Source: an uncultured Clostridia bacterium
GTDB taxonomy: Bacteria; Bacillota; Clostridia; Oscillospirales; Oscillospiraceae
DNA: 64,000 nucleotides
Assembly (NCBI GenBank): GCA_945877365.1
Contig: CAMCRV010000007.1
Coordinates: 1 to 64,000 of the forward strand
Reading direction: 5' to 3'
Shown: one piece after another, positions 2,496 to 63,260 of the stretch
Layout of the letters: each line of letters begins with the position of its first letter
Numbering within the stretch: position 1 is the first letter of the stretch
Made by a program: the position numbers and the translations under genes
Notes under the pieces: generated by a model
Databases searched by the model: none
Seen by the model: only the letters and a program-made list of their open reading frames with translations
What the model was told of the DNA's origin: nothing

Positions 2496-3020
2496 ATGAA
2501 GGCAAAGGAAATCACCCTCTGCGCCGTGCTGACGGCGCTGGCGCTGGCTCTGTCCTATACCGAGCAGTTTATCCCCTTGCAGCTGGCGATTCCCCTGCCG
2601 GGAATCAAGCTGGGACTTGCCAATATTGTCACGCTGGCGGCGCTGTACCTGCTGCGGACGAAATACGCCTTCTGGATTCTGCTTGCCAGATGCTTCTTTG
2701 GATCGGTATTCGGCGGCGGCATCACCGCGCTGTGCTTCTCCCTGCTGGGGGGATGCCTTGCCCTGGGGGTCATGGCGCTGGCAAAGAAGCTGCCCTTTCT
2801 TTCCATCTACGGGGTCAGTATCCTTGGCGCCGCCGCCCACAATGTGGGGCAGATCCTTGCAGCCATGGGGCTGATGCACAGCATCTACATCGGGGCGTAT
2901 CTGCCCTACCTTCTGATTGTGGCGGTGTTCACCGGTCTGCTCACCGGAGCCGCCTGCGCCGGAGTTCTCCGGGTGCTTCCTGACGCTTACATTTCCCTCC
3001 CGGCGGAGATGAGAAGATAA
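2496..3020 (+). CDS. Gx transporter / heptaprenyl diphosphate synthase component I family membrane protein (EetB-like)
   Basis: MKAKEITLCAVLTALALALSYTEQFIPLQLAIPLPGIKLGLANIVTLAALYLL...; hallmark PGIKLGLANIVTL motif; adjacent to the NusG-II gene. Confidence 0.85.
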   Translation: MKAKEITLCAVLTALALALSYTEQFIPLQLAIPLPGIKLGLANIVTLAALYLLRTKYAFWILLARCFFGSVFGGGITALCFSLLGGCLALGVMALAKKLPFLSIYGVSILGAAAHNVGQILAAMGLMHSIYIGAYLPYLLIVAVFTGLLTGAACAGVLRVLPDAYISLPAEMRR

Positions 3021-3029
3021 ACACATTTT

Positions 3030-3280
3030 TCGTGCATATCGGCGTGCGCCGGCAAAGCGACAAATTGTTGTTTAATTGACAATTGAAAATTGATAATTGA
3101 TAATTGTGGTATCCCTTCGGGATGAATTTAAAAAGAAAAACCGAGAGGAACCACAAAAAATGATTTCAAAATCGTCCCGAAGGGACACAATCATTTTCAA
3201 TTATCCATTATAAATTATCAATTCGACGAAGTCGATAAATTCCAATTTATCAACCGGCTGTATACAGCCAAAAGCAGATA
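3030..3280. repeat. Family C copy framed by family A-type arms
   Basis: cgtgcatatcggcgtgcgccggcaaagcgacaaattg...gataaattccaatttatcaaccggctgtatacagcc around the heptad arms. Confidence 0.8.
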
Positions 3281-3367: not shown

Positions 3368-4396
3368 ATGCTCCGCAGAATCCTCACCGCAGCGGCGGCT
3401 GTGCTGCTGCTTTCCGGCTGCGCTGTCCCAGCTGCGCAGAGCCGGGACAGGGTGTATGAGGCCACCTTTCTCACCCTCTTTGACACCGTAACCACCATCA
3501 AGGGTACCGCCGAAAGTCAGGAAGCCTTTGAGGAAACCGCCGGACAGATCCGCGACAAATTGGAATACTACCATCAGCTTTTCGACATCTACCACGACTA
3601 CCCCGGGATGAACAACCTGAAAACCGTCAACGATCAGGCGGGGATTGCCCCGGTGGCGGTGGATGAGGCGCTCATTGCCCTGCTGCTGGACTGTAAGGAC
3701 TACTACGACCTCACCGGCGGTATGGTGAATGTGGCCATGGGCGGCGTGCTGCAGCTGTGGCACGAGGCCAGAAATGATGCTCTGGGCGACCCCGCCAACG
3801 CAAGGCTCCCGGATGGGGACAAGCTGGAAACGGCGGCGCGGCACATGGATATCCGCCGGGTGGAAATTGACGAAGAAGCCGGGACGGTGTATCTTTCCGA
3901 CCCGGAAATGCGGCTGGATGTGGGGGCGGTGGCAAAGGGCTGGTCTGTCCAGCGGGTGGCGCAGACGCTCCCGGAGGGAATCCTCCTCAGCGTGGGGGGC
4001 AACATCTGCGCCACAGGCCCCAAATACCCCGACACCCCCTGGGTGGTTGGCGTCCGCGACCCCGCCGGTACCGCGCAGGACTATCTGCACACCCTGTATG
4101 TCAGCGGCGGCAGCGTGGTCACCAGCGGCGACTATCAGCGCGCCTACACTGTGGACGGAAGGCTGTATCACCATATCATCGACCCGGAAACCCGGATGCC
4201 CTCCCAATATTGGCGTTCCGTCAGCGTGATCTGTGACGATTCCGCTCTGGCGGATGTGTTGTCCACCGCGCTGTTTCTGCTCCCGCTGGAGCAGGGGCAG
4301 GCTCTGGCGGAGAAATGCGGCGTGGGCGTCCTCTGGGTCAACGCGGCAGGAGAGGAATTTATGACCGACCTCTTTCAGGAGCGCATCAAAGGATAA
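3368..4396 (+). CDS. apbE: FAD:protein FMN transferase (ApbE), lipoprotein
   Basis: Lipobox LLLSGC; ApbE signatures (FDTVTTI, DVGAVAKGWSVQRVAQ, LLSVGGNICATG, HHIIDPETRMPSQYWRSVSVI). Confidence 0.92.
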   Translation: MLRRILTAAAAVLLLSGCAVPAAQSRDRVYEATFLTLFDTVTTIKGTAESQEAFEETAGQIRDKLEYYHQLFDIYHDYPGMNNLKTVNDQAGIAPVAVDEALIALLLDCKDYYDLTGGMVNVAMGGVLQLWHEARNDALGDPANARLPDGDKLETAARHMDIRRVEIDEEAGTVYLSDPEMRLDVGAVAKGWSVQRVAQTLPEGILLSVGGNICATGPKYPDTPWVVGVRDPAGTAQDYLHTLYVSGGSVVTSGDYQRAYTVDGRLYHHIIDPETRMPSQYWRSVSVICDDSALADVLSTALFLLPLEQGQALAEKCGVGVLWVNAAGEEFMTDLFQERIKG

Positions 4397-4402
4397 CGAT
4401 CC

Positions 4403-4489
4403 ATGAACAAGCTGGTTTTCGCCGCCCCGGTGCTCACCGCTCTGGGGCTGTACCTGATGACGCAGTGCTTTGCCGGCAGAATTCTGTAA
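4403..4489 (+). CDS. 28-aa hydrophobic short ORF after apbE
   Basis: MNKLVFAAPVLTALGLYLMTQCFAGRIL, 6 nt after the apbE stop; its stop codon sits in the direct repeat bordering the adjacent repeat element. Confidence 0.35.
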   Translation: MNKLVFAAPVLTALGLYLMTQCFAGRIL

Positions 4490-4490
4490 T

Positions 4491-4718
4491 GTGCTTATCG
4501 GTTTTACTCAGCCGCTTGATAAATCGGAATTTGGCGATCTAAAGGCCCCCTTGTGTAAAGGGGGCTGTCAGCGCAGCTGACTGGGGGATTGACATTTGTC
4601 AGGACAACCCCTCCGGCAAAAATCAATAGATTTTTGCCACCTCCCCTTACACAGGGGAGGCTTTGGGCATCCCCACAAATTCCAATTTGTCGCTTTGTTG
4701 GCTTAAGCCGATATGCAC
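4491..4718 (+). repeat. Repeat family A, copy 1: multi-hairpin core with terminal inverted repeats GTGCTTATCGG / CCGATATGCAC
   Basis: Terminal inverted repeats; core hairpins GCCCCCTTGTGTAAAGGGGGC, GTCAGCGCAGCTGAC, GGCAAAAATCAATAGATTTTTGCC, CCTCCCCTTACACAGGGGAGG; flanked by perfect 10-bp direct repeat ATTCTGTAAT (4481-4490 and 4719-4728). Confidence 0.85.
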
Positions 4719-4734
4719 ATTCTGTAATATATGA

Positions 4735-4838: not shown

Positions 4839-5690
4839 ATGGCAAACATAAACCGCACCCTCACCGATGCCCGGATTGAGAGATATCTTTCCCACCTCCG
4901 GGAGCAGGAGAGAAGTCCCGCCACCATTCAAAAATATGCCCACGATTTGAAGGCACTGTCCCGGTGGCTGATGGGTGAGCCTGCCACCAAAGCCGCTCTG
5001 CTGGAATGGAAGCAGCGTCTTTCGGAATCCCATGCCCCGGCCACGGTGAACGCCATGCTGACGGCAGTCAACGGCTGCTTTCGCTTTCTGGGGTGGAAGG
5101 AGCTGCCGGTGAAGCTGCTGCGGCTGCAAAAAAATCTCTTTCTGGAGGAGAGCCGGGAGCTGACCCGGCAGGAGTATGTCCGGCTGGTGAGCACCGCCCA
5201 ATGCCGGGGGGAGCAGCAGCTGTCGCTGGTGATTCAGACCCTCTGCGCCACGGGCATCCGGGTGTCGGAGCTGCGGTTCATCACCATGGAGGCACTGCAC
5301 CGGGGCAGGGCGGAGGTCAGCAACAAGGGCAAGCGCCGCATCGTCTTTCTGCCGGAGAAGCTGAGAAGGCTGCTGCGCAGCTTCGCCAAGGCACAAAAAA
5401 TCACCGCCGGAGCGGTGTTTGTCACCCGGACGGGGCAGCCCCTGAACCGGTCGAATATCTGGCGCAGCATGAAGGCGCTGTGCGGCGCTGCCGGGGTAGC
5501 GGCGCAGAAGGTGTTCCCCCACAATCTGCGGCATCTGTTTGCCCGGATTTTTTACAGCATGGAGAAGGATCTGTCCCGGCTGGCGGATATTCTGGGGCAT
5601 TCCAGCGTCAATACCACAAGGATTTACACCGCCGAGAGCGGCGCGGTCCACGCCCGGCAGATGGAGCGAATGGGTCTGATTGTCACATAA
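4839..5690 (+). CDS. tyrosine recombinase / site-specific integrase (XerC/D-like)
   Basis: N-terminal SAM-like core-binding domain; catalytic set readable: TGIRVSELR, KGKRR, HNLRH, LGHSSVNTTRIYT. RBS aggagg before ATG 4839. Confidence 0.93.
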   Translation: MANINRTLTDARIERYLSHLREQERSPATIQKYAHDLKALSRWLMGEPATKAALLEWKQRLSESHAPATVNAMLTAVNGCFRFLGWKELPVKLLRLQKNLFLEESRELTRQEYVRLVSTAQCRGEQQLSLVIQTLCATGIRVSELRFITMEALHRGRAEVSNKGKRRIVFLPEKLRRLLRSFAKAQKITAGAVFVTRTGQPLNRSNIWRSMKALCGAAGVAAQKVFPHNLRHLFARIFYSMEKDLSRLADILGHSSVNTTRIYTAESGAVHARQMERMGLIVT

Positions 5691-6510: not shown

Positions 6511-6514
6511 TTTT

Positions 6515-6900
6515 CTGCTTATCAGCTTAAGCCAGCGAAGCGATAAATTGGAATTTGGTGCGTCCAAGGCCCCCTTGTGTAAAAGGGGCTGTCAGCGAAG
6601 CTGACTGGGGGATTGACAACCCCTCCGGCAAAAATCAATAGATTTTTGCCACCTGATACATTTTGGTATGATTGCCACTGGCAATCATGGAGATTTTGAT
6701 TCGCTGCGCGGAGCACAACCCCTTACACAGGGGAGGCTTTGGGCATCCCCACAAATATAGAATAGACCACCACCGCAAAAACGAACCGGGCGTGCCCAAA
6801 GGATGGAAAGATCATCACCCGGGTGAAGGCTCGCATTGCCCGTGGGGGCATCCCCACAAATGACAATTTGCCGTTTTGCTGGCCTGAGCCGACAGGTACA
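6515..6900. repeat. composite repeat: family A copy 2 with inserted palindromic module plus family B module
   Basis: Family A core (gcccccttgtgtaaaaggggctgtcagcgaagctgac...) interrupted by tgatacattttggtATGATTGCCACTGGCAATCATggag...gagcacaac, then the family B segment (agaccaccaccgcaaaaacgaaccgggcgtgcccaaaggatgg...gggggcatccccacaaat). Confidence 0.8.
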
Positions 6901-9576: not shown

Positions 9577-9677
9577 CAAAACAATTGACAATTGACAATG
9601 GAAAATGGACAATTTTAAAATTGTCCCGAAGGGACACCACAATTGTCAACTGTCAATTCTCAATTGTCAATTTGTAA
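9577..9677. repeat. Family C (TTGACAN)n arms around GTCCCGAAGGGAC
   Basis: acaattgacaattgacaatgg...gtcccgaagggacaccacaattgtcaactgtcaattctcaattgtcaattt. Confidence 0.8.
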
Positions 9678-13741: not shown

Positions 13742-13898
13742 ACAGTATTAGTTGACAGTTGACAATTGACAGTTGATGTGTCCCCTCGGGACGGAGTGGA
13801 AAAAAGACTGTCATTGCGAGCCAATGCGAAGCATTGGCGTGGCAATCCGTTTTCCTCTGTTATCCGTCAACCTGTCTCACTCGCTCAGGATGACAGGA

Positions 13899-23828: not shown

Positions 23829-23865
23829 CTTTGCAGGCTTGTCGGGTTAACGCAGCAGGGACGCA

Positions 23866-24050
23866 AATTGTTATTTATCAAATTGACAATTGAAAATTGA
23901 TAATTGACAATGATGGTGTCCCTGCGGGACAATTGAAAAAATCCGTTCATTTCCGTGCGTTTCTTTTTCATTCATCCCGAAGGGATTCCGCAATTGTCCA
24001 TTGTCAATTGTTAATTGTCAATTCGGCGAAGCCGATTAATTCCAATTTTC
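23866..24050. repeat. Family C long inverted repeat inside the operon
   Basis: attgacaattgaaaattgataattgacaatgatggtgtccctgcgggac ... atcccgaagggattccgcaattgtccattgtcaattgttaattgtcaattcggcgaagccgattaattcc. Confidence 0.8.
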
Positions 24051-24134
24051 CCGTCTGCTGAGTCAGGACGAAATGCAGGAAACTTTTTTCAGGGGCGGGC
24101 CAATGGTTCGCCCCAACGCTTTTTGGAGGTAACT

Positions 24135-26349: not shown

Positions 26350-26565
26350 AAATTGTTATTTGTGGGGATGCCCCCACGGGCAATGCGAGCCTTCGCCCGG
26401 GTGATAATCTTTCCATCCTTTGGGCACGCCCGGTTCGTTTTTGCGGTGGTGGTCTGTTCTATATAACCTACGCAGTTCCGGTCGAGGGGCCCAAAGGATG
26501 TGGATTGTCTACCCGCAGTCCGTAACGCATTGTCAGCGGCGACTCGCCGCCAAATTCCAATTTGC
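26350..26565. repeat. Repeat family B (also at about 779-990 and partial at about 6749-6870)
   Basis: ttgttatttgtggggatgcccccacgggcaatgcgagccttc.cccgggt...cctttggg.acgcccggttcgtttttgcggtggtggtctgttctatataacctacgcagttccggtcgaggggcccaaaggatgtgg...gactcgccgccaaattccaatttgc, near-identical in both full copies. Confidence 0.9.
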
Positions 26566-32744: not shown

Positions 32745-33012
32745 AAGGAATTGACAATTGACAGTTGACAGTTGACAATGTGAATGAATTGCTGAAAAAG
32801 GACCAATGCAGGAAACGGATCGATCCTGTCATCCTGAGCGAGTGAAACGAGTCGAAGGATCTTTGCATTTGCCTGCTGTACGCACTGCACACAAGGCATC
32901 CATGCCGAGGCTTTCTCCATTTCCCTTGGCTCCAGTCGGAATGACACACACTTTTTGACACGCCGGATTGACAGCTGATCATTGTCAATTTTCCATTGTC
33001 AATTGTCAATTA
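32745..33012. repeat. Family C heptads flanking a family D module
   Basis: ttgacaattgacagttgacagttgacaatg ... gtcatcctgagcgagtgaaacgagtcgaaggatcttt ... tcattgtcaattttccattgtcaattgtcaattaa. Confidence 0.8.
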
Positions 33013-33818: not shown

Positions 33819-33928
33819 GGGGAGATAACCTCCTGAAATTATATTTTTTCCATGATAGTGGAGGGAATATAAAAAGGGTGTTAAGGCCGCCTGAAAGATA
33901 TAAAGATTGCGTTAAGATTTGTAGGAAT

Positions 33929-34145
33929 GTGCTTATCGGTTTTACCCAGCCGCTTGATAAATTGTCATTTGTGGGGATGCCCAAAGCCTCCCCTGTGTAA
34001 GGGGAGGTGGCAAAAATCTATTGATTTTTGCCGGAGGGGTTGTCAATCCCCCAGTCAGCTTCGCTGACAGCCCCCTTTACACAAGGGGGCCTTTGGGTGC
34101 GCCAAATAACAATTTGCCGATTTGCTGACTTATGCCGATATGCAC
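33929..34145. repeat. Repeat family A copy 3, core inverted relative to copy 1
   Basis: Same terminal repeats GTGCTTATCGG...CCGATATGCAC; core reads agcctcccctgtgtaaggggaggtggcaaaaatctattgatttttgccggaggggttgtcaatcccccagtcagcttcgctgacagccccctttacacaaggggg. Confidence 0.85.
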
Positions 34146-34166
34146 ATTTAGAAAAGCCAAAAGGAC

Positions 34167-37392: not shown

Positions 37393-39339
37393 CTATCTGC
37401 CGGAGGGCACAATGCGGTACACCGTATAATCTCCGAATTGACCAAACAGTTCAAAGCCGGAGGGGACGGAACTCCTCTGGGCAAAGCCGGAGGAGCTATC
37501 CACGCAGACAAAATCGACACCGGAAAGAGTCAGTTGGTGAGCAGCCCACTGGGGCTCGTCAAAATCGGCCTTGTTGCAGAGGTCGAACTGCTGGGCGATT
37601 TCCAGAGGAGAAACGGTGCAATCCCCCACAGGCTGGTCAAAGTATTGCCGCTGGGTGTCCCGGCAGGCACCTAATATTTCAATCCGGTGGGAATACTGCC
37701 GCAGGAAGCAGTCTTTTTCAGACAGCCAGATTATCCTGACAGATCCGTCCGGCTCTGCCTGATCCAGCATGGCCTGCCCCATGGAGCACCAGAAGCTGCG
37801 CAATCCATATGGGTTGGTCTTTGCCTCTGCATTTGTTACGATACCCAAGCGATAGTTTACAGCCATACAGAAATCGGCAGGGGAGGATCTCAGAACCCCA
37901 ACCCCGGCCACAAAAAGAACAGCTGCTGTTGTGAGACCGACAACCAACTGCCTGCATTTGACAGAACATCCGCTGAATGCTTCTGCAACGGAATAAGCAA
38001 TGGAAAAGTAGATGGGAATCATCCAAAACAGGCGGAAATAAACATTTCCGGTGGAGAGATATTTGGATACGAAGGGGGTAAACAGCGGATTCAAAATTCC
38101 GGCAAACAGAGCGATGGTTCCGCCGAGAAGGATGAGCTTTGCCTTCCGGGAGCTGGACAGAAAAATATAGGCAAGGCAGAAGAGAAACAGATCCAGTATA
38201 TGGATGTTTACAGCACCTGTGAAGCTGCCTGACCAGCTGGGTTTTTCCATGGCAAGATATCGGGTTTGCTCGGTTACAACAGAAAAGTAGGCCAAGCCGG
38301 CGTAAATGATAACAGGCAGACAGGTGAGAACCAGGGGGAGGATAAGCTTTGGGATTTCCTTTCTCCGGTCAATGATCAGATAGGGAAGCCCCATGGACAG
38401 GCAGCACAGAAACGGCCAGAAAACGCCGATGATGGAGGAAGCAATGCCGGCGGTAAAAACAATCGATAAAATGCCCCAGCGTGTCCACGGGATGGGCTTC
38501 CGACCCAATTCAACAATTCCGGCACAGCCGTAGATGATGGCAGGATAAATGATAGACAGAAGAATGGACTTACCTTGGGAAGGAAATCGGATGATCCAGA
38601 AAGGGACATCACTGTGCTGATTATCCAAAAGCAGGAGCATCAGATAAACGAAGAGAAACACTAAGCCGGAGATAAGGGTGTCTGAATGTCGACTCACACT
38701 GCGGAAGGCCTGATACAGGGAACACCAGGAGACAAAATGGATAACAACAGTCAGGGTATTCCGGCTGAAAATGGTGGGGTGCATACCAAACAGGTGCGAC
38801 CAGTAGGCTTTCCAGAGTTCCAGCGTGGAGGCATCCACATTTTCAGGCATAGAGGTGTTGGAAATGCCGGACCAGATAAAGCCCTGAGGGAAATCCAGCC
38901 GGTTTTGGGAGAGGATCTCCATGACACGGGGCAGATAATAGCTGTCATCAGAGGTATCAAAGGAGAAACAGCAGGAGAGTAGAAGAGCGGCTGCCGCCAT
39001 GCCCAAAGCCAGCAGAACCATGGGCAGCTCCCTGTGGATGTTGCTCCAGACTGCCCGGATGTGGCTGCGAATCCGAAAAAACTGCGGTCTGGTCACAGAG
39101 GCAGAAAGGCCAGACAGGATAAAAAGCAGGAGAACTCCGCTATACACCCAGAACAGCAGGGTAAAGGATGTGTTGAGCCGCATCATGGGATAGGCGATTA
39201 CCTGAAATACAGCCAGAAGTGTCAAAAAACCCACCATCACGGCGTTGGTGAAGCTGAAGGGAAGCTTCAGAAGCTTCTGGACCGTAACACCGGAAAGCAA
39301 TACTGCCACCAGCAGGATGATTGCGGAAAAACAGATCAT
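37393..39339 (-). CDS. large polytopic membrane protein, paralog 1 (possibly DUF6077-like)
   Basis: About 12 hydrophobic segments; ends near-identical to the neighbouring ORF 39499-41448. Family name is a tentative recollection. Confidence 0.8.
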   Translation of the reverse strand: MICFSAIILLVAVLLSGVTVQKLLKLPFSFTNAVMVGFLTLLAVFQVIAYPMMRLNTSFTLLFWVYSGVLLLFILSGLSASVTRPQFFRIRSHIRAVWSNIHRELPMVLLALGMAAAALLLSCCFSFDTSDDSYYLPRVMEILSQNRLDFPQGFIWSGISNTSMPENVDASTLELWKAYWSHLFGMHPTIFSRNTLTVVIHFVSWCSLYQAFRSVSRHSDTLISGLVFLFVYLMLLLLDNQHSDVPFWIIRFPSQGKSILLSIIYPAIIYGCAGIVELGRKPIPWTRWGILSIVFTAGIASSIIGVFWPFLCCLSMGLPYLIIDRRKEIPKLILPLVLTCLPVIIYAGLAYFSVVTEQTRYLAMEKPSWSGSFTGAVNIHILDLFLFCLAYIFLSSSRKAKLILLGGTIALFAGILNPLFTPFVSKYLSTGNVYFRLFWMIPIYFSIAYSVAEAFSGCSVKCRQLVVGLTTAAVLFVAGVGVLRSSPADFCMAVNYRLGIVTNAEAKTNPYGLRSFWCSMGQAMLDQAEPDGSVRIIWLSEKDCFLRQYSHRIEILGACRDTQRQYFDQPVGDCTVSPLEIAQQFDLCNKADFDEPQWAAHQLTLSGVDFVCVDSSSGFAQRSSVPSGFELFGQFGDYTVYRIVPSGR

Positions 39340-39498
39340 AAAATCCTCCAAAACGATAAATATGAAATATTATATCAGCGGTAAAAACAGGTGTCAAGTA
39401 AACAGGGAAAAGCGGTGACCTTTCGCAGCAGTGATTTCCGGATAACCGCCAAAAAGTCCACAGATTCGGGAAGAATCTGTGGACTTTTCATCTGCTGG

Positions 39499-41448
39499 CT
39501 ATCTGCCGGAGGGCACAATGCGGTACACCGTATAATCTCCGAATTGACCAAACAGTTCAAAGCCGGAGGGGACGGAACTCCTCTGGGCAAAGCCGGAGGA
39601 GCTATCCACGCAGACAAAATCGACACCGGAAAGAGTCAGTTGGTGAGCAGCCCACTGGGGCTCGTCAAAATCGGCCTTGTTGCAGAGGTCGAACTGCTGG
39701 GCGATTTCCAGAGGAGAAACGGTGCAATCCCCCACAGGCTGGTCAAAGTATTGCCGCTGGGTGTCCCGGCAGGCACCTAATATTTCAATCCGGTGGGAAT
39801 ACTGCCGCAGGAAGCAGTCTTTTTCAGACAGCCAGATTATCCTGACAGATCCGTCCGGCTCTGCCTGATCCAGCATGGCCTGTCCCATGGAGCACCAGTA
39901 TTGCGACATCCCGTAGGGGTTTGTGCGAATCTCGGAATATCTCAACATCCTCAGGTTTTCACCCAGAAGAGCAGGCAGTTGGGACACAGGCACGATTGTC
40001 ATCAAAGCACCGGAGCCCAGAATGACAACAGCTGCTGCTGAACCTGCCAGAAGTTGCCTGCACCGGACAGACCGGGCGCCGAATACCTCGGCAATGGTAA
40101 ACGCCACGACGAAATGGATGGGAATCATCCAAAACAGGCGGAAATAAACATTTCCGGTGGAGAGATATTTGGATACGAAGGGGGTAAACAGCGGATTCAA
40201 AATTCCGGCGAACAGCGCGACGGTTCCGCCCACGAGGATGAGCTTGCTGCGCCTGGAACCGCACAGGCAGACAAACACAAGGGAAAACAGAAAAATATCC
40301 AGAAGGTTTTCACTTAGCACATATCTGAGGGTTTCCAGCCAGTTGGGACATGGAAAATCAAAATACCGGGTCTGGCGGGTGGCAATGGAAAAGTAGGACA
40401 GGCCGGCATAAACTACCACGGGCATACATGCCAGCACCAGCGGCCCAAGGAGCTTATGCAGATCCTTTCTGCGGTCAATCAGCAGATAGGAAACGCCGAA
40501 GGAGAAGCAGCACAAAAATGGCCAGAAAACGCCAATGATGGACACGGAAATTCCGGCAGTCAGCACCAGAGACATCACGCACCACCGATTCCATGGGATG
40601 GGCTCCTGCTTCAGCTCCACGACTTTGGCGCAGCTGTAAAGAATGGCAGGGTAGATGACAGACAGAATCAGGGACTTTCCATGAGAGGGATGGCGCATGA
40701 TCCAGAAGGGGAAGGAATCGTGCATCCAGGCGTCCATAAGCAGAAGAACCAGGTACACAGCCAAAAAGATGCATCCGGCTCCGGGGGAACCAGTGTGGTG
40801 GGAAAGACTCCGGTATGCCTGATAAGCAGAACACCAGCTGACGAAATAAATTACAAGAGACAGAGGAACTTTGCAGAAAATGGTGGGGTGCATACCAAAC
40901 AGGTGCGACCAATAGGCCTTCCAGAGTTCCAGCGTGGAGGCATCCACATTTTCAGGCATAGAGGTGTTGGGAATGCCGGACCAGATAAAGCCCTGAGGGA
41001 GGTCCAGCCGGTTTTGGGAGAGGATCTCCATGACGCGGGGTAGATAGTAGCTGTCATCCGAGTCACAGAAAGAATAGACCCCAAAAACCGTCAGAGCGGC
41101 TGCTATGGCCAGTACAGCCAGAATCAGCGCAGGGTAATCGCTGCGGAGGCTGTGCAGAACCGATCCTGTGTGATGGGATAGGGCGGATCGACCGTCAGGC
41201 CGCAGAAGCACCGCCGCACCGGCAGCCACCAAAAGCAGCAGGACGAGGCTGTATGTCCAGAACAGCAGGGTAAAGGATGTGTTGAGCCGCATCATGGGAT
41301 AGGCGATTACCTGAAATACAGCCAGAAGTGTCAAAAAACCCACCATCACGGCGTTGGTGAAGCTGAAGGGAAGCTTCAGAAGCTTCTGGACCGTAACGCC
41401 GGAAAGCAATACTGCCACCAGCAGGATGATTGCGGAAAAGCAGATCAT
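39499..41448 (-). CDS. large polytopic membrane protein, paralog 2
   Basis: Tandem copy offset by 2106 bp at the C-terminal end; N-terminal about 69 aa and C-terminal about 140 aa near-identical to paralog 1, interior divergent. Confidence 0.8.
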   Translation of the reverse strand: MICFSAIILLVAVLLSGVTVQKLLKLPFSFTNAVMVGFLTLLAVFQVIAYPMMRLNTSFTLLFWTYSLVLLLLVAAGAAVLLRPDGRSALSHHTGSVLHSLRSDYPALILAVLAIAAALTVFGVYSFCDSDDSYYLPRVMEILSQNRLDLPQGFIWSGIPNTSMPENVDASTLELWKAYWSHLFGMHPTIFCKVPLSLVIYFVSWCSAYQAYRSLSHHTGSPGAGCIFLAVYLVLLLMDAWMHDSFPFWIMRHPSHGKSLILSVIYPAILYSCAKVVELKQEPIPWNRWCVMSLVLTAGISVSIIGVFWPFLCCFSFGVSYLLIDRRKDLHKLLGPLVLACMPVVVYAGLSYFSIATRQTRYFDFPCPNWLETLRYVLSENLLDIFLFSLVFVCLCGSRRSKLILVGGTVALFAGILNPLFTPFVSKYLSTGNVYFRLFWMIPIHFVVAFTIAEVFGARSVRCRQLLAGSAAAVVILGSGALMTIVPVSQLPALLGENLRMLRYSEIRTNPYGMSQYWCSMGQAMLDQAEPDGSVRIIWLSEKDCFLRQYSHRIEILGACRDTQRQYFDQPVGDCTVSPLEIAQQFDLCNKADFDEPQWAAHQLTLSGVDFVCVDSSSGFAQRSSVPSGFELFGQFGDYTVYRIVPSGR

Positions 41449-41533
41449 AAAATCCTCCAAAAAGATAAATATAAAATATTATATCAGCGGTAAAAACAGG
41501 TGTCAAGTAAACTGACAGAAAGGAGAATAATTG

Positions 41534-51664: not shown

Positions 51665-51960
51665 TTTCGTTGACAGTTGATAGTTGACAGTTGACAGTTA
51701 AGGTGGTCCCTGTAGGACAAATTGGAAATTGGAATTTGTGGGGATGCCCAAAGCCTCCCCTGTGTAAGGGGTTGTGCTCCGCGCAGCGAATCAAAATCTC
51801 CATGATTGCCAGTGGCAATCATACCAAAATGTATCAGGTGGCAAAAATCTATTGATTTTTGCCGGAGGGGTTGTCAATCCCCCAGTCAGCTTCGCTGACA
51901 GCCCCCTTTACACAAGGGGGCCTTTGACCTCGCCAAATTCCAACTTGCCGTACTGCTGCA
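51665..51960. repeat. Family C fragment plus family A copy 4 with inserted palindromic module
   Basis: gttgacagttgatagttgacagttgacagtt..., then agcctcccctgtgtaaggggttgtgctccgcgcagcgaatcaaaatctccATGATTGCCAGTGGCAATCATaccaaaatgtatcaggtggcaaaaatc...; the inserted module matches the one in copy 2. Confidence 0.85.
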
Positions 51961-62895: not shown

Positions 62896-62935
62896 GGTGC
62901 TCCTCCTTTTGGGCGGATGTGGGATTTTGTCCTAT

Positions 62936-63151
62936 GTGCTTATGGGTTTTACACAGCGGGGTGATAATTGGAATTTGTGGGGGTGTCCAAAGCCTCCCCT
63001 GTGTAAGGGGAGGTGGCAAAAATCTATTGATTTTTGCCGGAGGGGTTGTCAATCCCCCAGTCAGCTTCGCTGACAGCCCCCTTTACACAAGGGGGCCTTT
63101 GAGCTCGCTAAATTCCAATTTGTCGCTTTACTGACTTACGCCGATACGCAC
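62936..63151. repeat. Repeat family A copy 5
   Basis: GTGCTTATGGG...CCGATACGCAC termini; core in same orientation as copy 3. Confidence 0.85.
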
Positions 63152-63260
63152 ATTGTCATGCTATGTTCAGTATATCATAGCGGAGCGGTGTTTTCAATCT
63201 TCCCGGAGGGAGAAAAGGGCAAAATGACAACAGAAAGGGGAAGAAACTGTAATCTGATAA

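Follow-up and report, generated by a model that had tools for sequence, protein, structure and literature searches.

A layered family of nested MITEs with interchangeable hairpin cores in intergenic DNA of an uncultured Clostridia bacterium

The focal element and its relatives in the window

The DNA described here comes from a draft assembly (G000; 2.15 Mb in 61 contigs) of an uncultured gut-type Clostridia bacterium. The window, meaning the whole stretch of 64,000 nucleotides that was analysed, is the first 64 kb of the 76.7-kb contig C7. The focal element occupies positions 3031-3279, with a heptaprenyl diphosphate synthase component I family gene (2496-3020) on one side and a gene of the ApbE family (3368-4396) on the other. 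It is built of a left outer arm of R type (3031-3066, no strand assigned, HMM score 31; sequence CGTGCATATCGGCGTGCGCCGGCAAAGCGACAAATT), a 177-bp heptad hairpin on the plus strand designated core C (3067-3243), and a right outer arm of L type (3244-3279, no strand assigned, HMM score 20) that begins AATTTATCAACCGGCTGTATACAGCC and has a decayed outer half. The core is made of TTGACAA-type units, CCCTTCGGG hairpins and complementary heptads, and its box ends read GTTGTTT... and ...AAATTCC.

The elements of the window are intergenic, and several others carry the same arms around the same or other cores. A second core C element lies at 1850-2082 on the plus strand, identified by an arm pattern match at 1851-1885, repeat families and sequence; its left arm (1850-1885) and core are clear, as a preliminary description of this DNA had proposed for 1855-2090, but the right arm is decayed beyond 2083. 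The same arms enclose core A at each of the three places claimed for it, with coordinates right to within a few bases. At 4490-4719 (minus strand) a 158-bp core in reverse orientation stands between arms at 4490-4525 and 4684-4719, and the target-site duplication TTCTGTAA at 4482-4489 (no strand assigned) has an identical right copy at 4720-4727. At 33928-34146 (plus strand) the core is 147 bp long, the flanks TGTAGGAA and TTTAGAAA match at 6/8 positions, and the inner 112-bp hairpin of the core (33983-34094, plus strand) perfectly matches the most frequent genomic copy. At 62935-63152 (plus strand) the core is 146 bp long.

The remaining elements are less complete. The element at 6514-6900 (minus strand) is a composite, whose arms enclose core A in interrupted form and, after it, core B in truncated form. 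A core C element at 23834-24079 (plus strand) has strongly diverged arms. Core A with its box and decayed arms is found at 51726-51947 (plus strand), joined on its left side to a heptad remnant at 51668-51725. Core B occurs at 774-987 and 26350-26563, both on the plus strand. It had been said to share the inner boundary of core A, and the box is indeed there, although the arms are unrecognisable at both places; elsewhere in the genome core B does lie inside arms (L031, L051, L072, L075). Heptad repeats of core C type also occur free of box and arms, as a heptad hairpin at 9583-9672 (no strand assigned) and at 13743-13803 and 32749-33011, so that the core C module is also found independently of the frame. 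Rfam covariance models at gathering score gave 0 matches in the window.

Two neighbouring features deserve mention. A tyrosine recombinase gene (Phage_integrase, PF00589) at 4839-5690 directly follows the element at 4490-4719, with no sign of action on the box. Two DUF6077 genes stand in tandem at a distance of 2.1 kb (37393-39351 and 39499-41460) and have 100% identical stretches beside stretches of about 70% identity, a pattern that suggests gene conversion.

The outer element and its target-site duplication

The arms are terminal inverted repeats of 36 bp, TGTGCTTATCGG...GATAAATT and AATTTGTCGC...CCGATATGCACA, arranged in inverted order; conservation drops after position 36, and the outer ends read 5'-TG...CA-3' (TGTGCWTATCGG...CAGC). 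Two arm consensus patterns gave 43 and 35 matches in the genome against 0 in controls. The pattern for the inner box, AAATNNCAATTTG, has 85 exact matches genome-wide against 0 for the reversed pattern, and with one mismatch it is found 27 times in the window where 1.2 are expected. A stricter arm-end pattern run on 13 genomes of the genus returned from 0 to 92 matches per genome, and none in controls. The same arms also occur in uncultured Clostridia/Oscillospiraceae MAGs.

Arm pairs (n=48) were assembled from stretches of the same genome, and the flanks of the elements were compared. For 36 elements of this genome, left/right identity at 8 bp is 0.70 versus 0.40 for shuffled flanks (z 10.7); for 39 elements of relatives it is 0.72 versus 0.41 (z 12.1). 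The identity peaks solely at k = 8; lengths of 4-7 and 9-12 bp give nothing comparable. Perfect 8-bp duplications flank 9/36 elements in this genome and 15/39 in relatives. At least 7 of 8 flanking positions match for 19 of 46 elements, while 2000 shuffles gave a mean of 0.7 and a maximum of 4; the target sites of these 19 are 81% AT, and core classes A, B, C and D are all represented among them. Elements are non-coding and range in size from 74 bp (bare) to about 490 bp, with arm pairs spaced 120-490 bp apart; across the genus the distance between paired arms is mostly 100-500 bp.

From the 8-bp duplications and the TG...CA ends it follows that the outer element is a transposable element. The flank comparison shows it to be a MITE with 36-bp terminal inverted repeats and an 8-bp, AT-rich target-site duplication. 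The arms are thus transposable-element ends, not merely a frame, which goes beyond the preliminary description. The arm-pair surveys of the genus yielded no transposase-bearing copy that has these ends, nor any longer arm pair marking an autonomous transposon; the one pair of about 3 kb that was checked, in G005, spans ordinary genes rather than a transposase.

Tandem outer elements in relatives share an 8-bp spacer, TAATACAA in L262 and TAATATAA in L263. In both, the 8 bp between at least two tandem elements recur exactly on the flanks of the array, as though an existing target duplication received each new copy. Contigs break inside elements at the ends of C8, C9, C24, C33, C49 and C56 of this assembly and of several MAG contigs. 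Elements are therefore under-counted in draft genomes of this group, where they account for some of the breaks between contigs.

Neither the strict nor the looser pattern detected a bare outer element in this genome; the sole match to the strict pattern proved unrelated. In relatives, the looser pattern finds bare 74-bp copies with one central box at the orthologous loci L273, L277 and L279 and also at L276, and partial bare copies at L280 and L282. The box in bare copies reads AAATT-SS-AATTT. Such copies could be ancestral targets, or else deletion products of recombination between two boxes, which are both direct and inverted repeats because they are palindromic. ApbE orthologues at the focal locus in the genus have 56-67% protein identity, and the intergenic DNA beside them is not alignable. 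The nearest relative compared, G084, has 76-81% DNA identity and lacks the core B element 26350-26563 at the matching place. At this distance no locus was seen that holds a core in one genome while in a close relative it is bare or holds another core.

Cores, the central box and the ages of the layers

Six or more core types (A-F) share one frame and one fixed point within it. The junction is always ...AAATT | G-NN-ATTT ... AAAT-NN-C | AATTT..., a palindromic box whose central dinucleotide, read on the outward strand, is nearly always TC, AA or GA. Core A is 147 bp long in most copies, core B 204 bp and core C, made of heptads, 169-178 bp; core D is made of heptads different in sequence from those of core C, and E and F are further cores. 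Core orientation is random, the arm order around core A being LR in 10 cases and RL in 9. Shared arms with interchangeable cores, as originally proposed, are thus borne out: one and the same box, within one set of arms, accommodates six core classes.

Core D (L025:921-1233, L055:888-1192) has the architecture of core C in the window (3067-3243), with heptads, a CCC-TTCG-GGG hairpin and complementary heptads. Its heptad TTAGGAG/CTCCTAA replaces the TTGACAA/TTGTCAA of core C on both arms at once.

An unbiased sample was picked by core sequence, taking the best 40 scored candidates each for cores A and B, so that the copy numbers of both cores are lower bounds. Among the matches listed, the box is present at 99/102 ends. 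Both ends were scored in 49 of the listed copies, among which two arms are recognisable in 27, one in 11 and none in 11. Box and arms are both missing from L235, a copy of core B. A direct target duplication was examined as a possible mark of core insertion, but no clean one is present, since the two boxes are inverted (GG on the left, CC on the right) and not direct copies; the mark may instead be a duplicated 4-bp AATT or a box duplicated in inverted orientation.

Arms and cores differ in apparent age. For 21 core A elements, mean pairwise identity is 94.6% for cores versus 77.3% for arms, and the two are uncorrelated (0.08). When cores A and B are pooled, elements with higher arm scores have better preserved 8-bp duplications (rho 0.51, p 0.006), which would be expected of two features that both decay from the time of insertion, whereas arm score and core identity are unrelated (rho -0.09, p 0.66); these comparisons are based on one draft genome, with arm types modelled from the same data. 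Core similarity follows neither arm decay nor loss of the target duplication. The age of the ends of a bacterial MITE is here separated numerically from that of its interior, and the lack of correlation between arm and core similarity upholds the earlier view of a non-coding family rather than one repeat. Some low-scoring arms may represent a third arm subtype instead of decayed copies, and several of them keep 7/8 duplicated bases. If so, cores would still be common to different outer frames, but the decay reading would be weaker.

Core A itself holds a separable part, absent from the preliminary description. Its inner 112-bp hairpin, AAAGCC...GGCCTTT, is identical in 31/39 listed copies (mean diversity 0.008), and diversity jumps abruptly at its edges to 0.13 in the left linker and 0.40 in the right. 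The inner A hairpin family also occurs in at least seven other genomes of the genus, where it has neither box nor arms (G013, G016, G018, G022, G029, G041, G082). Compensatory changes occur at 23/45 predicted pairs in a small, hand-picked set of ten sequences, for which no null was computed. The simplest reading is a nest of three layers, the inner pieces having arrived, or having been replaced, later than the outer ones.

Proposed mechanism and comparison with known systems

The family is a layered system of nested MITEs, neither one repeat nor a product of low-complexity matching. We think it probable that it represents a set of nested non-autonomous transposons whose interiors turn over after insertion of the outer element. 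The first layer, as the flank comparison shows, is a MITE that duplicates 8 bp of AT-rich intergenic target on insertion; a DDE-type transposase, with its gene at another place or lost in the meantime, presumably mobilises it in trans. The second consists of non-coding hairpin modules A-F, which as a pattern are seen in either orientation at the central palindromic box, bounded by inverted boxes. The third, again seen as a pattern, is the 112-bp structured hairpin in core A, which also exists on its own elsewhere in the genus and has recently spread or been homogenised. Most likely, an outer element lands and starts to decay, and a hairpin module then inserts at the central palindrome or is exchanged through it, so that the interior would turn over independently of the ends. 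The target of such core insertion is not seen in this genome, as no bare outer element was found there. The composite can also move as one piece, as copies that contain cores A and B have perfect 8-bp duplications on their flanks.

The main rival is gene conversion. Composites would transpose as units, and RecA-dependent conversion would homogenise cores of the same class but not 36-bp arms that lie beside unique DNA. The identity of 31/39 listed inner A copies fits this account, as do the intact 8-bp duplications around whole A and B composites, and recombination between arms could invert cores. Conversion tracts, however, should fade gradually towards their edges, yet diversity rises abruptly as soon as the 112-bp hairpin ends, and this sharp edge appears to argue against conversion. 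Nor can conversion put the unrelated cores A-F at one point, and inner A stands alone in other species. We regard this explanation as unlikely.

The layered reading must also be set against a site-specific recombinase that acts at the palindromic box and exchanges non-coding cassettes in the manner of an integron. The strictly fixed junction with cores in two orientations, the palindromic box of 13-14 bp with three common central dinucleotides (TC, AA, GA), the bare single-box copies in relatives and the recombinase gene at 4839-5690 beside one element would all suit it. No recombinase is linked to the repeat family, however, one adjacent gene in about 50 elements being no evidence; known sites of tyrosine recombinases look longer than the box; and insertion or conversion suffices. 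This mechanism is very unlikely, and it is equally improbable that the box is a dedicated recombination site by which hairpin cassettes are exchanged, inverted and deleted in fixed frames, to give swappable intergenic structures across the genome. Of the earlier term "cassette-style", then, the swappable-core pattern stands, but for the mechanism nested insertion and gene conversion fit at least as well.

Single-strand transposition of the hairpin cores, of REP/RAYT type, would agree with hairpins that show compensatory changes and with cores that lack an obvious target duplication of their own. A Y1 transposase (PF01797) was not found in G000, however, while it scores above cut-off in 31/61 genomes of the genus, and the cores, at 112-204 bp, exceed REP units in length; we consider this highly improbable. 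Chance low-complexity similarity of the arms, which the simple, AT-rich inner AAATT...AATTT might invite and which the preliminary description had named as what would refute its view, can be dismissed given 35-85 real matches against 0 in controls and the target-duplication statistics.

As to function, the analysis found neither a coding role nor a match in Rfam nor a linked recombinase. The most economical account is that nested hairpin elements proliferate selfishly, with possible side effects on transcript ends. The layered reading suggests that MITE interiors are renewable after insertion, and that small non-coding mobile elements can gain or swap an interior after landing. If confirmed in strains, this would change the dating and classification of MITE families, whether by their ends or by their core. 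The family also offers a concrete system, in a large uncultured group of Clostridia, for asking whether small repeats exchange their contents by insertion, recombination or conversion.

Cyanobacterial STRRs are intergenic arrays of heptamer repeats. TAACTGA repeats form intergenic heptamer arrays as well (PMC4679880). Cores C and D resemble these in having heptad units in intergenic DNA, but here the heptads form two complementary hairpin arms inside a transposable frame. The overall geometry is very similar to that of a typical prokaryotic MITE, QMITE2 of Coxiella, with terminal inverted repeats of 23-29 bp, direct repeats of 7-9 bp, a core of 113-145 bp and a foldable transcript (PMC10969869). 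QMITE2 is, however, one family with one core, and the accessible part of that account does not describe decoupled core and terminal-repeat ages (PMC10969869). Correia elements of Neisseria are intergenic and MITE-like, with 26-bp inverted repeats that delimit an internal sequence of up to 156 bp (PMC3049150). By description, the present family is set apart from them by its 36-bp arms, its 8-bp duplications and an interior that is swapped for unrelated modules.

BOX elements of streptococci are composite intergenic repeats built of modules, and in S. suis boxB modules are flanked by A/C or E/F arm pairs (PMC3049150). The likeness lies in shared cores within different frames. In BOX, however, it is mainly the number of tandem boxB units that varies; here, in place of boxA/boxC arms around a varying number of one tandem unit (boxB), the interior is one of six unrelated hairpin modules, joined in both orientations at one palindromic junction. 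A literature search, with most subscription journals outside it, gave no direct match for this repeat family, for decoupled arm and core ages, or for nested MITEs in Clostridia. Modular repeats as such are already known from BOX and Correia; what appears to be new here is the repeat family itself, together with the decoupled ages of its arms and cores.
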